In this document: positions 10,205 to 36,087 of the stretch, piece after piece
Position numbering within the stretch: position 1 is the stretch's first letter
Layout of the letters: every line of letters starts with the position of its first letter
Origin: a virus
Strand: one strand, 5' to 3'
Length of the DNA: 42,048 nucleotides
IMG/VR virus record: IMGVR_UViG_3300009002_000011
Coordinates: 1-42,048 of that record
Translations under genes and position numbers: made by a program
The notes under the pieces: model-generated
Seen by the model: the letters and a program-made list of their open reading frames with translations, nothing else
The model's database searches: none
Told to the model about the DNA's origin: nothing

Positions 10205-11437
10205 TTACAAACTTAGTAAATCTTTCTTGAAATGTCTAAGTGTATAATCTTTTTTTTGCTGAACAGACTTATATATGTCGTGCTCAATACCGTTCTTTGC
10301 GAACACCCAATACACTTCGTTGTTACTTCTGTCTTTGGTAGTCATCCTATCCCTGCTCTGCCAATAACTTGTTGCACTGAAATCAATATTGTAGTACACT
10401 AAATACTTGGCTTGCTTTAGAGAGATACCTTCCCTTCCCGAAACAATCTGAAGAGCTATACTCTTATCTGTGTCTTCGAAGACACTAAGTTCTGTGGTTA
10501 GTTGGTCTCCGTAAACTTCCTTAAGAGCCTTCAACTCTTCCTTGAACTTATAGAATATTCCTATCTTGTTGGTGCAAAAGTTGTCATAGATAAACTGAGC
10601 CTTGCTCAAGTCTATTATCTTTGAATTTCCCGACTCAAACTTAATAGTTCCCGAATACAATTGATGCAACTTCATCATCAACTTCACGGGAGTATCTGCC
10701 AAAATAACTTCATCACTTCCTTCTATAACTAAATCCTTCTTCAACTTCGCTGCCAACTTGTACGTCATGTCACTCATCTCAACTTCAAGAATCTTTTCTT
10801 TTATCTTAACCTTGAAGCCTGCTTCTGCTTGCGAGTAGTTAATCGTGAATGGTTTTACCGCATCTATTATGGTTTCTAGACCTGTAGAGTAGTCACGTAT
10901 GTTAAGACCTCCTATAGGTCTTGTTTTAACTTTAACATAATCATCAGAGAATCTGTAAAAGTTTTTGTAACTGCTAAAAGGATTGCCTTTTATACCGTAC
11001 ACTTGATGATACATCTGACTGTACGATTCGGGTGTTGGTGTTCCCGAAAGAAATATAACCTTACTGTTGTTCTTCTGAATAAGCTCCTTCACTTGCTTTG
11101 CTCTCTTGCTTGGTTTAGGATAAGCTCCCATTGAATGAGACTCATCACACACAATAATATCCCACTTTACATTGGGTAGTTTATGAATGCTTTCATAGTT
11201 CATTACAAACATAACAAAAGATGCGGGGCAAATCAAATCATAATCCCTACTAATTGATAACATTGCTTTCTTTTTTGTTAAGAACAAAACATTTTCAACA
11301 CCCATCTTATCACATATCCCTAAACTAGTCAAGGTCTTACCTGTTCTAACCTCCATAGCTAGGTAGACAAAATTACTTGTACGTAAAATATCCGTACCTT
11401 TTTTTATAATCTCTGTTTGATAGTCTCTAAATTCCAT
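10205..11437 (-). CDS. SNF2-family/SF2 DNA helicase
   Basis: 410 codons. Motifs in order: Q-motif-like FRDYQ near the N-terminus, Walker A EVRTGKT (29-35), DESH motif II (98-101), SGTPTP motif III (131-136), and a C-terminal REGISLKQAKY/QSRDRM region that corresponds to motifs V and VI. It is shorter than cellular SNF2 proteins and typical of phage helicases paired with VRR-NUC. It probably acts in phage DNA replication or recombination with the adjacent nuclease. Its coding sequence contains one exact copy of the 16-bp palindrome (10470-10485), which encodes VFEDT in frame. Confidence 0.9.
   Translation of the reverse strand: MEFRDYQTEIIKKGTDILRTSNFVYLAMEVRTGKTLTSLGICDKMGVENVLFLTKKKAMLSISRDYDLICPASFVMFVMNYESIHKLPNVKWDIIVCDESHSMGAYPKPSKRAKQVKELIQKNNSKVIFLSGTPTPESYSQMYHQVYGIKGNPFSSYKNFYRFSDDYVKVKTRPIGGLNIRDYSTGLETIIDAVKPFTINYSQAEAGFKVKIKEKILEVEMSDMTYKLAAKLKKDLVIEGSDEVILADTPVKLMMKLHQLYSGTIKFESGNSKIIDLSKAQFIYDNFCTNKIGIFYKFKEELKALKEVYGDQLTTELSVFEDTDKSIALQIVSGREGISLKQAKYLVYYNIDFSATSYWQSRDRMTTKDRSNNEVYWVFAKNGIEHDIYKSVQQKKDYTLRHFKKDLLSL
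10470..10485. repeat. 16-bp palindrome copy 2, inside helicase gene
   Basis: Exact GTGTCTTCGAAGACAC within coding sequence, read as VFEDT on the minus strand. Adjacent bases on both sides are A and A, so the stem does not extend. Being inside a gene, it argues against a simple gene-end role for every copy. Confidence 0.9.
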
Positions 11438-18314: not shown

Positions 18315-18334
18315 ACATCTGTTTTTAAAGGTTT

Positions 18335-18383
18335 CCGTTTCATCCTTTAGGAATCATCAGTGCAAGTACTCACTTGCATACGG
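18335..18383 (-). ncRNA. Hammerhead ribozyme A (type III)
   Basis: All core elements are seen on the minus strand. Stem III 5' side is CCGU; cleavage triplet is GUA, with the cut after 18379; stem I is TGCAAGT/ACTTGCA (7 bp) with a GAGT loop; then CTGATGA (18360-18354), stem II UCC/GGA with a UAAA loop, GAAA (18341-18338) and stem III 3' side CGG. The open end is at stem III, so it is type III. Weak points are a U-U at the 10.1/11.1 position, normally G-C, and a stem III of only 4 bp. It lies between two minus-strand genes, directly downstream of a hairpin. Confidence 0.85.
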
Positions 18384-18385
18384 TA

Positions 18386-18411
18386 AAGGAGTGTCTTCGA
18401 AGACACCCCTT
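18386..18411 (-). repeat. Stem-loop with palindrome copy 5, 5' of ribozyme A
   Basis: The exact 16-mer occupies 18391-18406. On the minus-strand RNA, AAGG/CCTT flanks plus one G-U wobble lengthen the stem to 11 bp with a UCGA loop; on the plus strand the wobble would be an A-C mismatch. It starts 4 nt after a stop codon and ends 6 nt before the cleavage site. Confidence 0.85.
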
Positions 18412-20391: not shown

Positions 20392-20442
20392 TCGGTTTCA
20401 TCCTTTTGGAATCATCAGCACGGACACTCATCCGTGTACCGA
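20392..20442 (-). ncRNA. Hammerhead ribozyme B (type III)
   Basis: Minus strand: stem III UCGGU/ACCGA (5 bp), triplet GUA with the cut after 20437, stem I CACGGA/TCCGTG (6 bp, 6-nt loop), CTGATGA (20418-20412), stem II UCC/GGA with an AAAA loop, and GAAA (20399-20396). It differs from copy A in both arms of stems I and III while pairing is kept, which is strong evidence for the fold. As in A, position 10.1/11.1 is U-U. It lies between the amidotransferase fusion and the permuted paralog gene. Confidence 0.88.
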
Positions 20443-20464
20443 GAGTGTCTTCGAAGACACCCTC
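20441..20464 (-). repeat. Stem-loop with palindrome copy 6, 5' of ribozyme B
   Basis: The exact 16-mer occupies 20445-20460. Flanks extend the stem to 10 bp on the minus RNA with a G-U wobble at the same place as in copy 5. Its last bases abut stem III of the ribozyme and overlap it by 2 nt. It begins 23 nt after the stop of the upstream gene. Confidence 0.85.
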
Positions 20465-20487: not shown

Positions 20488-21567
20488 CTAAAGGTTAACT
20501 ACAACCTCTTGTTCTGTAAAACTCTCATTGCATTGAGGACAATGGTATGAGGAGTTTGATATCTCATGCTCATCAACAACTAAGTCTGAATAGCAATTGA
20601 CACACATCGGTGATTCGTTCAACACATCAAAGTCATCTTCAACTTTGAAAGCGTCATCCCAAATCATCTGCTGTGTGCATTCAACTTGGTCTCTGAATGT
20701 GTACGTGCTAGGCTTGTACACTTGCTGTGTGTATCTTTGATGCATTTGCTCCCCAAGTGGTAACTCTTTCAAGTTAAAGTAAACCCAACAGTTTACTGTC
20801 TTACCGCTGTTCAACTTGATTGGCACTTGCTTTCTTCTGTACCAATTCGGATGACCCTCTAGCCTATCCAAGTCTAGTAGCTTGCTGTCGTCAACCTTGA
20901 AGATGTCAATCTCTACGTTGTGACCTACACCTTTCTCCTCAATCAAGTATGGCAACCCTTGTATAAGTAATGGGTACTTGTCAACAGTCTTACCTCTGCC
21001 TAGGTACTTGCTTGACCGCAAGTATCTGTTGTAGTTAGAGTAGTTCTTCTTTAGCGTTCCGTACACACCAATAACGTGGTCTTCTAATACGTTAGCCTTT
21101 GAATACCAAACACCATCTCTCTTGAAGTAAGCATCTCTGTTGTATATCTGAAATGTTCTTGTTCTTCTGTTAATACTAACGAACCTAGCTTCGTGCTGTT
21201 CCAACTCTGCTCTCCATTCGCTTCTTGGCATATCACCTAGCATACGTGCTTGAACCTTGGTGTCGCAAGTCTCTGCATCACCCAACCCTCTGATTGTTCC
21301 GTTCATCATAAGCAACTCATCTCTGTTCTTGCCACATACAAATGGATGCATATTCTCTCTGTTGATTTTACCCACAGTAGCATAACGGAAGTGAGCGATG
21401 AATGGTCTGTCAGTGTGCAACTGAGCGTAGTCTTTAGATTCTTGGTATGTCAACTCAAAAGTGTCTAGCCATACAATCCCCAATCCGTGAGGATTGATTC
21501 GTGCTGAAGTCTTGAGTCTCTCCATTGGAATCTTTTCTGATTTCTGTTTGATAATAATAATACACAT
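20488..21567 (-). CDS. Class II glutamine amidotransferase - gamma-glutamyl cyclotransferase - zinc ribbon fusion
   Basis: 359 codons from MCIIII. I chose this start because class II amidotransferases need Cys2 exposed as the nucleophile. GAT-II part: C2, HGLGIVW (27-33), AHFRYAT (58-64), HPF (74-76) and MNGTI (88-92). Cyclotransferase (GGCT/AIG2-like) part: VYGTLKKN (168-175) and LDRLEGHPNWYRR (232-244). C-terminal zinc ribbon: C322-x2-C325 and C343-x2-C346. Inferred activities are glutamine-amide hydrolysis or transfer and release of gamma-glutamyl groups as 5-oxoproline. It lies in one strand unit with an amidoligase and a papain-like peptidase. The palindrome at 21591-21606 is in its 5' leader, and hammerhead D lies upstream. 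Confidence 0.85.
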   Translation of the reverse strand: MCIIIIKQKSEKIPMERLKTSARINPHGLGIVWLDTFELTYQESKDYAQLHTDRPFIAHFRYATVGKINRENMHPFVCGKNRDELLMMNGTIRGLGDAETCDTKVQARMLGDMPRSEWRAELEQHEARFVSINRRTRTFQIYNRDAYFKRDGVWYSKANVLEDHVIGVYGTLKKNYSNYNRYLRSSKYLGRGKTVDKYPLLIQGLPYLIEEKGVGHNVEIDIFKVDDSKLLDLDRLEGHPNWYRRKQVPIKLNSGKTVNCWVYFNLKELPLGEQMHQRYTQQVYKPSTYTFRDQVECTQQMIWDDAFKVEDDFDVLNESPMCVNCYSDLVVDEHEISNSSYHCPQCNESFTEQEVVVNL

Positions 21568-21590
21568 AGTAAGTAATAAATTTGTGAGTA

Positions 21591-21606
21591 GTGTCTTCGA
21601 AGACAC
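21591..21606. repeat. 16-bp palindrome copy 7, in 5' leader
   Basis: Exact 16-mer, 24 nt upstream of the amidotransferase fusion ATG and 12 nt downstream of ribozyme D. After cleavage by D it would form a hairpin near the 5' end of the downstream RNA. Confidence 0.9.
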
Positions 21607-21618
21607 AGAACTCGGTTT

Positions 21619-21673
21619 GTATAAGACACGGAATGAATCCGTGTTTCGACTATTTAAGTCTCATCAGTTATAC
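21619..21673 (-). ncRNA. Hammerhead ribozyme D (type I)
   Basis: Minus strand: stem I GTATAA/TTATAC (6 bp) is the open end, so it is type I. CTGATGA lies at 21667-21661, stem II is GACT/AGTC with a 5-nt loop, GAAA lies at 21647-21644, and stem III is 7 bp (CACGGA side) closed by a 5-nt loop. The cleavage triplet is GUC, with the cut after 21625. The canonical G-C at 10.1/11.1 is present. Stem I begins at the base right after the stop codon of the 103-aa gene. Confidence 0.9.
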
Positions 21674-21985
21674 TTACTTTCTACGCATCTCTTCTGCGTA
21701 CTCCTTGGCTTGCTGTTCTCTGAGCATCTCAATGTGATTGAATAGCTTCATAAAGTTCTCTAGCAATACCTTCTTGTTCCCCTTGATGCCGAAGTAAGTC
21801 TTGACATCTCGAACCCTCCAATTGCTATGTGGCTTCATCCCTATCGCATTTAATCCGATGTCTCTCTTGCTTACGTACAGATTGTACATTGCTCTTTGCA
21901 TTGCTTTTCCGTTGAATTGGAAGTAAGCATCCTCGTCTGTTAACTCTTTGTAAAATGGTGTTGTAGTATCTAGTTTGTAACTCAT
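21674..21985 (-). CDS. Hypothetical 103-aa protein
   Basis: Begins MSYKLDTTTPFYKELTDED. Helical, with WRVRDVKTYFGIKGNKKVLLENFMKLFNHIEML and an acidic/basic tail. The segment RDVKTYFGIKGN could be a helix-turn-helix, which is weak. Its TAA (21674-21676) is immediately followed by hammerhead D. Confidence 0.6.
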   Translation of the reverse strand: MSYKLDTTTPFYKELTDEDAYFQFNGKAMQRAMYNLYVSKRDIGLNAIGMKPHSNWRVRDVKTYFGIKGNKKVLLENFMKLFNHIEMLREQQAKEYAEEMRRK

Positions 21986-23615: not shown

Positions 23616-23666
23616 GCTGTTTCGACCTTTTGGTCTCGTCAGTACAGATACACATCTGTAGACAGC
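23616..23666 (-). ncRNA. Hammerhead ribozyme C (type III)
   Basis: Minus strand: stem III GCUGU/ACAGC (5 bp), triplet GUC with the cut after 23661, stem I TACAGAT/ATCTGTA (7 bp, GTGT loop), CTGACGA (23642-23636, fitting CUGANGA), stem II GACC/GGTC with an AAAA loop, and GAAA (23623-23620). All canonical core positions are present. It lies between the amidoligase gene and a small ORF, directly downstream of a 7-bp hairpin. Confidence 0.92.
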
Positions 23667-26114: not shown

Positions 26115-26146
26115 TTTGATGTATTAAATAAAAAATACTATCTTTG
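26115..26146 (+). promoter_or_regulatory. Promoter of groEL operon
   Basis: TTTG (26115-26118), 20 nt, TATCTTTG (26139-26146), a full match to the Bacteroidota -33/-7 consensus. Transcription would start about 7 nt later, some 15-20 nt before the groEL ATG. Confidence 0.8.
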
Positions 26147-26170
26147 TCAAATAAATCAAATCTAATACTT

Positions 26171-27778
26171 ATGAATAATCAAATGGGGTTCACCCCTAAA
26201 GACTTAAAGTTCGGTGAAGATGGTAGAGTTAAACTAAAAGCCGGAATCGAAAAGATTGCTAACGCAGTAAAGAGCACCCTCGGTCCTAGAGGTAATACAG
26301 TTCTTATTGAATCACAACATCATACAGGAGGAATCACGGTAACTAAGGATGGAGTTACGGTCGCTAAGGCGGTTGACTTGTTAGACCCGGTTGAGAATCT
26401 TGCGGTACGTATTATGAAAGAGGCTGCTGATAGAACAGCTAGCTCTGCCGGTGATGGAACGACTACAGCTATTGTGCTTACCGAGGCTCTTGTCGAGCAG
26501 GGTCACATTCATCTTGGTGATGGTGTAAACAACACGCAGGTTCTACGTGAGCTTGTTAGTGAGACTGAGCAGGTCGTAAAGACATTGAAAAAGAAAAGCA
26601 AGAGTGTAACTGACTCAAAGTTACTTGACGTTGCGACTATCTCTGCGAACAATGACGCTAAGGTAGGTCGTATTATATCTGACGTATACAAGTCGGTCGG
26701 TAAGGATGGGATTGTAACGGTAGAGAAATCTGACAGTTCAGAGACAACTTACACCACAACCAAAGGACTTATGGTAGAGAGAGGTTACTCTTCTCCTTTG
26801 TTCATTAACAACCAAAAGAAAGACGAGTGTATCTTAGAGGATGTTCATATCTTGGTATCTGATGCTGAGATAACAAACATACTTCAGATTGAGAATGTAC
26901 TTAAACCAATCATTGCTGAGAACAAGAAGCTTCTTCTTATTGCACCGTGTGCAACTAATGTGCTAAACACATTGGCGGCTAACGTTATGAAAAACAACTT
27001 GAAGATATGTAGTATAACTCCCCCGCAGTTCGGATATAAACAACACGAATTAATGCAAGATATCGCCATCTCGGTAGGAGCTACATACTTTTCAGAAAAG
27101 ACAGGTGATGATTTGTCACTAATGGGGTTTGATGATTTAGGTCACGCACCAAAGGTTATTGTAGAAAAGTCACAGACTGTGATTTTAAAAGACGACAATC
27201 ACTCAGATGAGATTGACGAGAGAGTAAAACAACTATGGGATAGCTACGAGAACACAAGTAGAGTTGCTGACAAAGAGTTTATCTTGTCACGTATCGCTTC
27301 ATTGACAGGTGGTGTTGGTGTAATTAAAGTTGGTGGTCAGACAGACCTAGAGCAGAAAGAGTTGTTTGACAGGATTGACGATGCTGTGTGTGCAGTACGT
27401 TCTGCAATGCAAGAAGGTATACTTCCGGGAGGAGGTGTGTCGCTAATGTATATCGGTCAAGAGATTCTGAAAAAACAAACTGACGATAAAAATAAAAAAA
27501 TTGCTTACGCAATTTTAGGTAACGCATTGCAAGCACCTGTTATGCAGATTCTTGATAATGCGGGATATCACATTAATGATGTGTACCCTGAGTGGGATAT
27601 AAAGTTTGGAGAAGGATACAATGTTGCTAGTGAGAAGTTTGGTAACATGATAAGGATGGGTGTGATAGACCCAATGAAAGTTACAAAGAGTGCACTACAA
27701 AATGCAGTATCTGTAGCGGTTACATTACTTAGTACGAATGCTATTATTACAATGGCACGAACTTATGACACTGAGTAG
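26171..27778 (+). CDS. groEL: Phage-encoded chaperonin GroEL
   Basis: 535 codons from MNNQMGFTPKDLKFG. An earlier TTG in frame at 26144 lies inside the promoter and is rejected. Family motifs: TLGPRGNTVLI (36-46), TKDGVTVAK (58-66), GDGTTTA (94-100, ATP/Mg site), LPGGGVSL and GYNVASEKFGNMIRMGVIDP near the end, which matches the conserved C-terminal ATPase segment. It is near full length but lacks the Gly-Met-rich tail and ends ARTYDTE. It probably folds capsid or other phage proteins with the GroES-like protein encoded 279 bp downstream. Confidence 0.97.
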   Translation: MNNQMGFTPKDLKFGEDGRVKLKAGIEKIANAVKSTLGPRGNTVLIESQHHTGGITVTKDGVTVAKAVDLLDPVENLAVRIMKEAADRTASSAGDGTTTAIVLTEALVEQGHIHLGDGVNNTQVLRELVSETEQVVKTLKKKSKSVTDSKLLDVATISANNDAKVGRIISDVYKSVGKDGIVTVEKSDSSETTYTTTKGLMVERGYSSPLFINNQKKDECILEDVHILVSDAEITNILQIENVLKPIIAENKKLLLIAPCATNVLNTLAANVMKNNLKICSITPPQFGYKQHELMQDIAISVGATYFSEKTGDDLSLMGFDDLGHAPKVIVEKSQTVILKDDNHSDEIDERVKQLWDSYENTSRVADKEFILSRIASLTGGVGVIKVGGQTDLEQKELFDRIDDAVCAVRSAMQEGILPGGGVSLMYIGQEILKKQTDDKNKKIAYAILGNALQAPVMQILDNAGYHINDVYPEWDIKFGEGYNVASEKFGNMIRMGVIDPMKVTKSALQNAVSVAVTLLSTNAIITMARTYDTE

Positions 27779-33860: not shown

Positions 33861-36087
33861 ATTATACAGGGTAGTACCTAATTATGTTCCTAAGAATGTT
33901 ATTACTAACAAGAATAGGAATAGTAGTTGGGTGTATGGCTATAATGAAAAGTATGATTTAGTTATTATATCTAAAACAGGAAAGCTTGGAGATGTTATAG
34001 AGATTTCCGGTTTAAAAATAGGTTTACCTCTTACTCCCAAAGAGTGTCTTCAAAGACACAAAGATAAACAACATCAGTATTGGGAAAGACATGAGATTCC
34101 AAAACAGCTTTCAAAAATAAAATCCATATTTCAATGGAATGAAATGCCTACTGCTTTTAAAGACAGGTGGGTGGATTATATTGAGAATGAATTTGATAGA
34201 AGAGAAGATGGGGTGTGGTTTATGAATAACGGAGTCAAAACCTACATTACAGGTTCTCACTATATATACCTTCAGTGGTCAAGTATAGATGTTGGATACC
34301 CTGACTTTAGGGAAGCCAATAGAATATTTTGGATTTTTTGGGAAGCGTGTAAGGCTGACAAGAGAAGTTTTGGAATGACTTACTTAAAGATTAGACGTTC
34401 CGGTTTTTCTTTTATGGGCTCTAATGAGTGTGCTAACACAGGAACATTAGCAAAAGATGCAAGGGTCGGAATACTTTCAAAGACAGGGTCGGATGCTAAA
34501 AAAATGTTTACAGACAAGGTAGTTCCAATATGTAACAGATTACCTTTCTTTTTTAAGCCTGTTCAAGATGGTATGGATAAGCCAAAAACAGAACTAGCAT
34601 TTAGAATACCTGCTTCTAAGATTACTAAAAAAAATATGCACGAGGTTGACTCTGAGGAAATGACAGGGTTGGATACAACTATTGATTGGAAGAATACAGA
34701 TGACAACTCTTATGATGGAGAAAAGTTATTGTTATTAGTGCATGATGAAAGTGGTAAGTGGGTAAAACCAAATAATATATTAAACAATTGGCGAGTTACT
34801 AAAACCTGTTTAAGATTAGGTAGTAAAATTATTGGAAAGTGCATGATGGGTTCAACATCAAATGCTTTAGAAAAAGGAGGAGGTAACTTTAAAAAGTTAT
34901 ATGAAGACTCCAATGTGGGAACAAGAAACTCAAATGGTCAAACTAAAAGCGGGTTATATTCACTTTTCATCCCTATGGAGCAAAACATGGAAGGCTTTAT
35001 AGATAGATATGGAATGCCCGTTTTAAATAAACCCAAGAAACATATACTAGGTGTAGATGGAGAAATGATTAATCAAGGGGCTGTAGATTATTGGGAAGCA
35101 GAAGTTGATTCTTTAAAAGATGACCCTGATGCTCTTAATGAATTTTATCGTCAGTTTCCTAGAACAGAGTCACACGCATTTAGAGATGAAAGTAAACAAT
35201 CTTTATTTAATCTAACTAAGATATATCAACAGATAGATTACAACGAAACTTTAATACAAGAACATCATGTAACTAGGGGTTCGTTTTATTGGAAGAACGG
35301 AATCAAAGATACTGAGGTTATGTTTAGACCTGACAAGCACGGTAGATTTAATATTGGTTGGAGACCAAAGAAAAATTTGCAGAACAGAACAATAACAAAG
35401 AATGGTATTAAATATCCCGGAAACGAACACATAGGTTCTTTCGGCTGTGATAGTTACGATATATCAGGAACAGTTGGAGGGGGAGGTTCTAACGGAGCAT
35501 TACACGGTGTGACTAAGTTTAATATGGATGATGCTCCTAGTAACGCTTTCTTTTTAGAATATGTAGCTAGACCTCAAACCGCAGAAATATTTTTTGAAGA
35601 AGTATTGATGGCTTGTGTTTTTTATGGTATGCCAATACTTTGTGAGAACAACAAGCCAAGACTACTCTATCATTTTAAAAATAGAGGATACAGGGGATTT
35701 AGTATGAATAGACCCGATAAAGCTTATAACAAGCTATCTAAGACAGAAAGAGAACTAGGGGGGATACCTAACTCATCTGAAGATGTAAAGCAGGCTCACG
35801 CAGCCGCTATCGAGTCGTATATAGAAAACCACATAGGATTAAATATAGATGAAAGCAACTCAGATAGCTTGGAAGCTGATATGGGTACAATGCCTTTTAT
35901 TAGAACTCTAGAAGATTGGGCAAAGTTTGATATTAGTAATAGAACAAAATTTGATGCAACTATAAGTTCAGGATTAGCTATAATGGCTAATCAAAAACAC
36001 TTATACACACCTCAAAAAAAAGAGTCAAAAATTAGTCTTAACTTTGCAAGATATAGTAACTCAGGAAGAACAAGTCAATTATTATAA
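33838..36087 (+). CDS. terL: Terminase large subunit
   Basis: 749 codons, with a TTG start at 33838; the next in-frame ATG is about 100 codons later. ATPase: Walker-A-like KIRRSGFSFMGS (184-195), Walker B LLLLVHDE (297-304), motif III MGSTSN (337-342). Nuclease: GCD538SYDISG and LCEN (E603) as first and second acidic residues. The large size and RRSGFS form match terminases of crAss-like and related Bacteroidota phages. It packages DNA through the portal encoded next. It contains a variant palindrome at 34044-34059. Confidence 0.93.
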   Translation: MQNVGQNKLYRVVPNYVPKNVITNKNRNSSWVYGYNEKYDLVIISKTGKLGDVIEISGLKIGLPLTPKECLQRHKDKQHQYWERHEIPKQLSKIKSIFQWNEMPTAFKDRWVDYIENEFDRREDGVWFMNNGVKTYITGSHYIYLQWSSIDVGYPDFREANRIFWIFWEACKADKRSFGMTYLKIRRSGFSFMGSNECANTGTLAKDARVGILSKTGSDAKKMFTDKVVPICNRLPFFFKPVQDGMDKPKTELAFRIPASKITKKNMHEVDSEEMTGLDTTIDWKNTDDNSYDGEKLLLLVHDESGKWVKPNNILNNWRVTKTCLRLGSKIIGKCMMGSTSNALEKGGGNFKKLYEDSNVGTRNSNGQTKSGLYSLFIPMEQNMEGFIDRYGMPVLNKPKKHILGVDGEMINQGAVDYWEAEVDSLKDDPDALNEFYRQFPRTESHAFRDESKQSLFNLTKIYQQIDYNETLIQEHHVTRGSFYWKNGIKDTEVMFRPDKHGRFNIGWRPKKNLQNRTITKNGIKYPGNEHIGSFGCDSYDISGTVGGGGSNGALHGVTKFNMDDAPSNAFFLEYVARPQTAEIFFEEVLMACVFYGMPILCENNKPRLLYHFKNRGYRGFSMNRPDKAYNKLSKTERELGGIPNSSEDVKQAHAAAIESYIENHIGLNIDESNSDSLEADMGTMPFIRTLEDWAKFDISNRTKFDATISSGLAIMANQKHLYTPQKKESKISLNFARYSNSGRTSQLL
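34044..34059. repeat. Palindrome variant inside terminase gene
   Basis: GTGTCTTCAAAGACAC, the same single central change as the copy at 25603-25618, with arms intact. It is read in frame as ECLQRH. It is the only copy in the late plus-strand arm. Confidence 0.85.

Follow-up and report, generated by a model that had tools for sequence, protein, structure and literature searches.

Type I hammerhead ribozymes commonly overlap the upstream stop codon in viral genomes, and one may stand in for a promoter ahead of a phage amidotransferase gene

Comparison of viral hammerhead ribozymes revealed that the type I and type III permutations are placed differently with respect to the gene upstream. Among the non-redundant viral hammerheads listed that had a callable upstream gene, 121 of 194 type I ribozymes contained the stop codon of that gene, as compared to 0 of 126 type III ribozymes. 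Judged from sequence, as are the ribozyme fold, the hairpins and the missing promoter described below, this placement rule is general among type I hammerheads. The case examined here is hammerhead D in a 42-kb virus record (the window: IMG/VR record IMGVR_UViG_3300009002_000011 over its full 42,048 nt), which lies between a 103-aa gene and an amidotransferase gene. We consider it probable that D is a constitutive processing element that would replace a promoter, that is, self-cleaving punctuation in a polycistronic phage transcript. The features of the region are as follows.

21619 to 21673, minus strand: type I hammerhead D, recognized by its core, three stems, model scores and comparative fold support
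Parts of D, minus strand: stem I, 21673-21668 with 21624-21619; CUGAUGA, 21667-21661; stem II and its loop, 21660-21648; GAA, 21647-21645; stem III and its loop, 21644-21626; C17, 21625
Between 21625 and 21624, minus strand: predicted cleavage site of D (GUC/U), at the hammerhead consensus position
21674 to 21985, minus strand: upstream gene of 103 aa, an open reading frame with TAA stop at 21676-21674
21568 to 21624, minus strand: downstream leader of D, 57 nt, in which the hairpin 21613-21586 encloses the palindrome 21606-21591
20488 to 21567, minus strand: amidotransferase fusion gene with ATG at 21567, from domain profiles and leader alignment
20443 to 20462, minus strand: hairpin between the amidotransferase stop codon and the type III hammerhead that follows
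20392 to 20442, minus strand: type III hammerhead, 66.6 bits, U.U at 10.1-11.1, GUA cleavage triplet
18391 to 18406, minus strand: palindromic hairpin just ahead of the hammerhead at 18384
18334 to 18384, minus strand: type III hammerhead, U.U at 10.1-11.1, GUA cleavage triplet
23616 to 23666, minus strand: type III hammerhead with canonical core and the hairpin GGGAGTAGAGATACTCCC ahead of it

From 21673 to 21619 on the minus strand, D reads 5'-GUAUAA CUGAUGA GACU-UAAAU-AGUC GAA ACACGGA-UUCAU-UCCGUGU C/UUAUAC-3' (slash, predicted cut). Its core is canonical at all positions, stems I, II and III are all canonical, and the whole conforms to the type I hammerhead definition (CUGANGA ... GAAA ... 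UH, three stems, stem I open); stem I is the open end, which makes D a type I ribozyme. The original prediction of such a hammerhead on the minus strand at 21619-21673 was thus confirmed, as was its view of D as permuted relative to the other three ribozymes, which are type III and leave D alone with an open stem I. It had also placed the first base of stem I directly 3' of the TAA of the 103-aa gene, and this is correct since the stop of the open reading frame 21985-21674 occupies 21676-21674. In total, the window encodes four same-sense hammerheads within 5.3 kb, all on the minus strand (one type I and three type III), and thereby shows the arrangement of several same-sense hammerheads flanking genes that characterizes clustered phage hammerheads.

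The Rfam model Hammerhead_1 (RF00163) scored D at 32.7 bits (E = 1.9e-4), narrowly missing the gathering score of 34, which is a curated cut-off and no defining property of hammerheads. A model built in this analysis scored D at 60.8 bits (E = 1.9e-15), partly by construction because the near-identical L006 copy is among its 43 training rows. An independent descriptor found about 0.05 such matches per shuffled window. The RAGATH-1 hammerhead (RF03152) was rejected as an assignment for D (32.0 bits, E = 0.14, versus a gathering score of 56.3).

An unbiased test of the stems used a pattern in which the core and loop II alone were fixed and stems I and III were left free. All 123 scorable non-redundant matches had a 4-bp stem II, and 120 of the 123 also had a stem I of at least 5 bp and a stem III of at least 4 bp, as compared to 9 of 2,460 flank-shuffled controls. 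This excludes a chance motif as a reading of D. In the type I alignment (A4), 100% of cells were paired and 12 of 14 pairs had changed on both sides, although the pairing is partly by construction since rows were picked by pairing. With regard to a putative tertiary contact of stem I with loop II, the A residues at -1 and +1 that flank stem I were conserved; loop II was UNWRU, as fixed by the search pattern.

The window derives from a virus of marine bacteria. Its terminase is ~46% identical to those of Flavobacterium phages and 75% identical to that of MW202828, and a blastn search at the DNA level with 4.2 kb of the window matched no phage record. The 16-base perfect palindrome GTGTCTTCGAAGACAC occurs nine times in the window and GTGTCTTCAAAGACAC twice, mostly in intergenic positions (6253, 10470, 14652, 16818, 18391, 20445, 21591, 23450, 24667, 25603, and 34044); the copy at 10470 is within a helicase-like open reading frame and that at 34044 within the terminase open reading frame. 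The window also encodes a GroEL-like chaperonin on the plus strand at 26144-27778 (Pfam 3.1e-62, PHROG 3.8e-137).

To evaluate placement, 228 type I and 142 type III non-redundant viral hammerheads were compiled from protein scans, two pattern scans of viral contigs (each with at least 120 matches), and one scan of genome contigs. Because protein and pattern scans were the sources, this set is no census but a sample, with a bias toward the loop sequences specified in the patterns. Duplicates were removed via identical 30-nt stretches, five viral type II matches and named-phage loci were excluded, and the descriptor used for the counts misses type III variants mismatched at 10.1-11.1. A callable upstream gene was defined as a same-strand open reading frame of at least 60 aa ending no more than 200 nt upstream of the ribozyme or inside it, with the longest one ending near the ribozyme being used; 34 of the 228 type I and 16 of the 142 type III hammerheads had no such gene and were dropped from the counts. 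At least 120 stretches in viral contigs matched the core and loop II pattern, and 29 matches to a pattern with one more fixed base were found in the bacterial and archaeal genome collection.

The difference between the two types persisted when each upstream protein family was given one vote (overlap in 102 of 161 type I and 0 of 53 type III) and within the 20 loci that encode both types (17 of 33 versus 0 of 21). Type I hammerheads on bacterial and archaeal genome contigs overlapped a stop codon in 8 of 16 cases. Exceptions comprised 73 of the 194 viral type I ribozymes, 28 of which were more than 60 nt from the nearest called gene end. The stops themselves were found at positions 0, +1, +6, +10, and +20. 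The commonest were a UAG that shares the first G of stem I (+1) and the UGA of the core CUGAUGA (+10), with 24 cases each, followed by a UAA within stem I at +6 (22 cases) and a UAA directly ahead of stem I, which is the state of D (15 cases); loop II also supplies stops. On the downstream side, start codons lay 15-24 nt after the type I ribozyme in 102 of 169 cases. None of 171 type I ribozymes had its predicted cut less than 20 nt from the stop codon; among 120 type III ribozymes, 5 did.

Type III hammerheads follow a different arrangement. The stop codon lay 21-60 nt ahead of the ribozyme in 108 of 126 cases, and the gap between them contained a stem of at least 6 bp in 105 of 114, as compared to 21 of 114 shuffled gaps and 192 of 723 other stops in the same loci. 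This hairpin adjoined the ribozyme in 77 of the 105, such that the usual order is stop codon, 5-9 nt, hairpin, 5-7 nt, and cleavage site. In the type III alignment, 97.2% of cells were paired and 12 of 16 pairs showed double changes, partly by construction since most rows were picked by pairing. A type I ribozyme needs no added hairpin because its stem III is itself a hairpin that ends one base before the cut; where the gene end was 18-75 nt upstream of a type I ribozyme, 7 of 10 cases likewise had a hairpin. Both types would therefore leave an upstream mRNA with a stop codon and a hairpin near its 3' end, as far as placement and predicted folds indicate. Hairpin-capped 3' ends in both arrangements suggest a reason for the permutation that is independent of any coupling to translation.

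The leader downstream of D was compared with those of relatives of the amidotransferase gene. The gene product combines class II glutamine-amidotransferase-like and GGCT/AIG2-like (Pfam GGACT, 7e-22) domains with C-terminal CxxC pairs. A GTG inside the hairpin, which would give a 372-aa open reading frame, was rejected as the start in favor of the ATG at 21567 (Met-Cys, as in relatives) because 29 leaders align to that Met-Cys ATG; this start sets the leader after cleavage at 57 nt. The earlier claim of a short downstream leader holding a palindrome hairpin held up: the hairpin is present and covaries in relatives, with 94.2% of cells paired and double changes in 9 of 10 pairs among 24 distinct leaders (25 of the 29 surveyed leaders were aligned; L008, L010, L030, and L034 were left out).

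The survey covered the 150 nt before the Met-Cys start in 29 of 31 relatives (L024 and L036 were left out). A -7 box of the TAnnTTTG kind was identified in 27 of the 29 leaders, where its start, as first matched, lay 62-101 nt upstream of the ATG, and the full two-box element TTNGG...TAnnTTHG in 21 of 29, as compared to 4 of 1,160 shuffles. We take the consensus of these boxes (-33 TTnGG / -7 TAnnTTTG) to be that of a Bacteroidota-type promoter. The -7 box was missing from two of the 29 leaders, those of L006, which represents this phage, and L028, and a hammerhead was found there instead. The L006 amidotransferase protein is 100% identical to that of the window and its leader carries hammerhead D, while the L028 leader has a type III hammerhead in place of the -7 box. 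In L032-L034 a hammerhead is located farther upstream and a promoter is retained between it and the gene. The same hairpin follows downstream of either the box or the ribozyme. Full boxes end 54-67 nt before the ATG in relatives, and the predicted cut of D is 57 nt before the ATG. Since both leaders that lack the -7 box have a hammerhead, D would most likely supply the 5' end for which relatives use the promoter. Counting against this, the exchange was seen in just two of 29 leaders. Moreover, MW202828, the nearest named genome by terminase, had no hammerhead, and the 130 nt inspected there lacked the full promoter box, which argues against a simple either-or between promoter and ribozyme.

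We infer from these patterns that D cleaves in the cell, that the resulting mRNA ends are protected, and that the ribozyme replaced a promoter as an evolutionary event. D would cut a polycistronic transcript between the gene for the 103-aa protein and that for the amidotransferase. Stop codon and ribozyme body would stay with the upstream mRNA, which would terminate in the hairpin of stem III and bear a 2',3'-cyclic phosphate there. The mRNA downstream of the cut would begin with a 5'-OH and the 57-nt leader, with a hairpin the same as that found just behind the promoter of relatives, whose place D would occupy in this phage lineage. A type I ribozyme can overlap the stop codon because its cut lies 40-50 nt downstream of its 5' edge and it supplies a 3'-terminal hairpin of its own. 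A type III ribozyme, which would cut near its own 5' edge, instead sits 21-60 nt downstream of the stop codon behind an added hairpin. In the loci of relatives, 79 of 79 model matches (E of at most 0.01) were on the sense strand of the amidotransferase gene. Counting against this mechanism, the predicted minimum-energy fold of a 345-nt precursor did not contain stem I of D (pair probability ~0.03); enforcing the ribozyme fold costs 1.9 kcal/mol in predictions that omit the tertiary contacts of hammerheads.

The overlap with stop codons invites an explanation based on translation. The original prediction had proposed that a ribosome at the TAA would cover stem I and perhaps CUGAUGA, such that cleavage could depend on translation of the 103-aa gene; the amidotransferase mRNA would then be released in a translation-dependent manner as well. 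The geometric part stands. With the leading edge of a ribosome assumed to be ~10 nt past the stop codon, a terminating ribosome would reach into 153 of 194 type I ribozymes but only 2 of 126 type III ribozymes, which makes this a property of type I hammerheads rather than a quirk of a single locus. The start-codon side, for which general values of ribosome distances were likewise used, is mostly kept clear by at least 15 nt. The dependence of cleavage on translation fared less well, and we regard it as unlikely. The stop position wanders over 20 nt, which speaks against tuning, and the same overlap is predicted by packing, since a type I ribozyme cuts ~45 nt past the stop codon and its own terminal hairpin stays on the upstream mRNA. 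Fast hammerheads cut within seconds and a stop codon is occupied only part of the time, so that any effect of translation should be modest. Its sign is also ambiguous in predicted folds. For 60 type I ribozymes, the median predicted pairing of stem I fell from 0.91 without upstream RNA to 0.06 with 200 nt of it, suggesting that naked upstream coding RNA competes with stem I and that a translating ribosome could help folding and not block it. Native and shuffled upstream sequences had about the same effect on ribozyme folding, with no selection visible. The broader notion that type I hammerheads sharing their 5' strand with a stop codon are termination-coupled switches in many phages, in which the finishing ribosome would time cut and release and type III would be the uncoupled form, appears just as doubtful.

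An improbable alternative is that the sequence of the ribozyme alone supplies the stops (through A(-1)-G1, the UAA-rich stem I, the core UGA, and loop II), such that any gene extending into it would stop there, and that the overlap has no meaning for either mRNA. In its favor, the commonest stops were UAG at +1, UGA at +10, and UAA at +6, and A at -1 was present in 85% of overlapping versus 77% of non-overlapping cases; yet the fixed spacing from hairpin to cleavage site in type III, the spacing to start codons, and the promoter exchange are left unexplained. We give still less credence to translational coupling without cleavage, whereby an 8-bp helix between the stop region (AGUAAGUA) and the leader before the ATG (UACUUACU) would hide the start codon until a ribosome reaches the stop. 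Folding of 21690-21560 and of 345 nt predicts such pairing, which partly accounts for the absence of stem I of D from the predicted 345-nt precursor, and the AUG is predicted to be unpaired at 0.04-0.14 in the short precursor versus 0.51-0.92 in the 3' product. However, the native short precursor was matched in folding by 14 of 500 flank shuffles, the longer precursor is predicted to leave the AUG unpaired at 0.6-0.9, the helix occurs in only one phage and hence has no covariation, and the ribozyme is transcribed ahead of the partner strand of the helix. The case for this long-range helix is weak. Least probable of all is that D is a relic or selfish element, an inactive ribozyme that chance has preserved or that recombination between gene cassettes bounded by hammerheads has spread. 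Gene neighbors do vary (the one relative of the 103-aa protein, in L038, is 52% identical over residues 4-74 and has no ribozyme), and U.U occupies 10.1-11.1 in two of the window's four ribozymes. Against this, D and 120 of 123 pattern matches have intact cores and covarying stems, and the strand and placement of hammerheads are strict. Collectively, a constitutive processing element remains the reading that we favor.

Hammerheads are widespread among relatives of this phage. Searches covered 28 of the 31 amidotransferase relatives (L024, L029, and L036 were left out), the record of the window, and four named phages. At least one hammerhead was identified in each of the 29 IMG/VR records searched, including that of the window; the type III model matched 26 of the 29 and the type I model 13, one of which (G004) is a cross-hit that overlaps its own type III match. 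Among named phages, elemoA_7-9A, cultivated on Flavobacterium sp. BAL314, encodes one type I (17347-17290) and one type III (19137-19085) hammerhead, the former starting on the UAG of a 22-codon open frame. An opposite-strand 'hypothetical protein' annotated in that record (L159, 17275-17382) covers the type I hammerhead and is probably a false gene call. A type I hammerhead is present in Cellulophaga phi18:3, and a model search found no hammerhead in phi38:1. Blastn of consensus hammerheads against named phages matched the elemoA phages and phi18:3; matches to Streptomyces and others (E ~1-4) were taken as chance. At Rfam gathering thresholds no hammerhead was found in nine loci (L006, L017, L145, L158, L039, L065, L069, L019, and L159), suggesting that such phage hammerheads may be missed by routine annotation.

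Two kinds of variants were observed. In many type III ribozymes, often the one that directly follows the amidotransferase gene, U.U or A.A replaces the G-C pair at 10.1-11.1, and the triplet before the cut is often GUA or GUU rather than GUC (window 20442-20392 and 18384-18334; L007, L009, L018, L020, L022-L025, L027, L028, L035, and others); these are perhaps slower ribozymes kept at one position. In several type I ribozymes an additional U separates stem II from CUGAUGA (or CUGACGA) (L008:2444-2516, L011:3058-3112, L011:4477-4544, and L030:2727-2780).

Among known systems, RAGATH-1 hammerheads (RF03152), which are linked to phages, share with D the hammerhead core and an open stem I, but their 5' hairpin would fall in the coding region here. 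Polycistronic mRNAs of T7- and T4-type phages are processed by RNase III and RNase E, and the resulting ends carry hairpins; hairpin-ended mRNAs are thus common to both systems, although a host enzyme acts there whereas the RNA would cut itself here. D also resembles clustered phage hammerheads, in that several hammerheads flank genes in one phage. Such clusters were described as flanking single genes or short blocks in phage and prophage genomes, they had been suggested to divide long transcripts of phages into mRNAs of gene length, and several of the hammerheads were shown to cleave (Perreault et al., 2011; PMC3088659). The passages of that paper on these clusters contain neither the rule relating permutation to the stop codon, nor the hairpin ahead of type III, nor the exchange of promoter and ribozyme, all of which were found here. 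The same source reports a hammerhead upstream of the helicase gene of the haloviruses HF1/HF2, with a mapped transcript end near the cleavage site. It resembles D in being close before a start codon, where it may make a 5' end, and differs in its variant core and archaeal host; overlap with a stop codon is not told in that passage (PMC3088659). The stop-codon rule, the hairpin rule, and the promoter exchange were not found in searches of open-licence papers. D is one more member of an established ribozyme class, and its setting, too, is of a known kind; the placement rule looks new. A 2017 review noted a tie of prokaryotic hammerheads to phages and described their role as open (PMC6155905). 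The placement rule gives them a concrete one, as punctuation that would give mRNAs a hairpin at the 3' end and a fixed leader at the 5' end; the permutation would set where the stop codon lies, and a ribozyme would substitute for a promoter.
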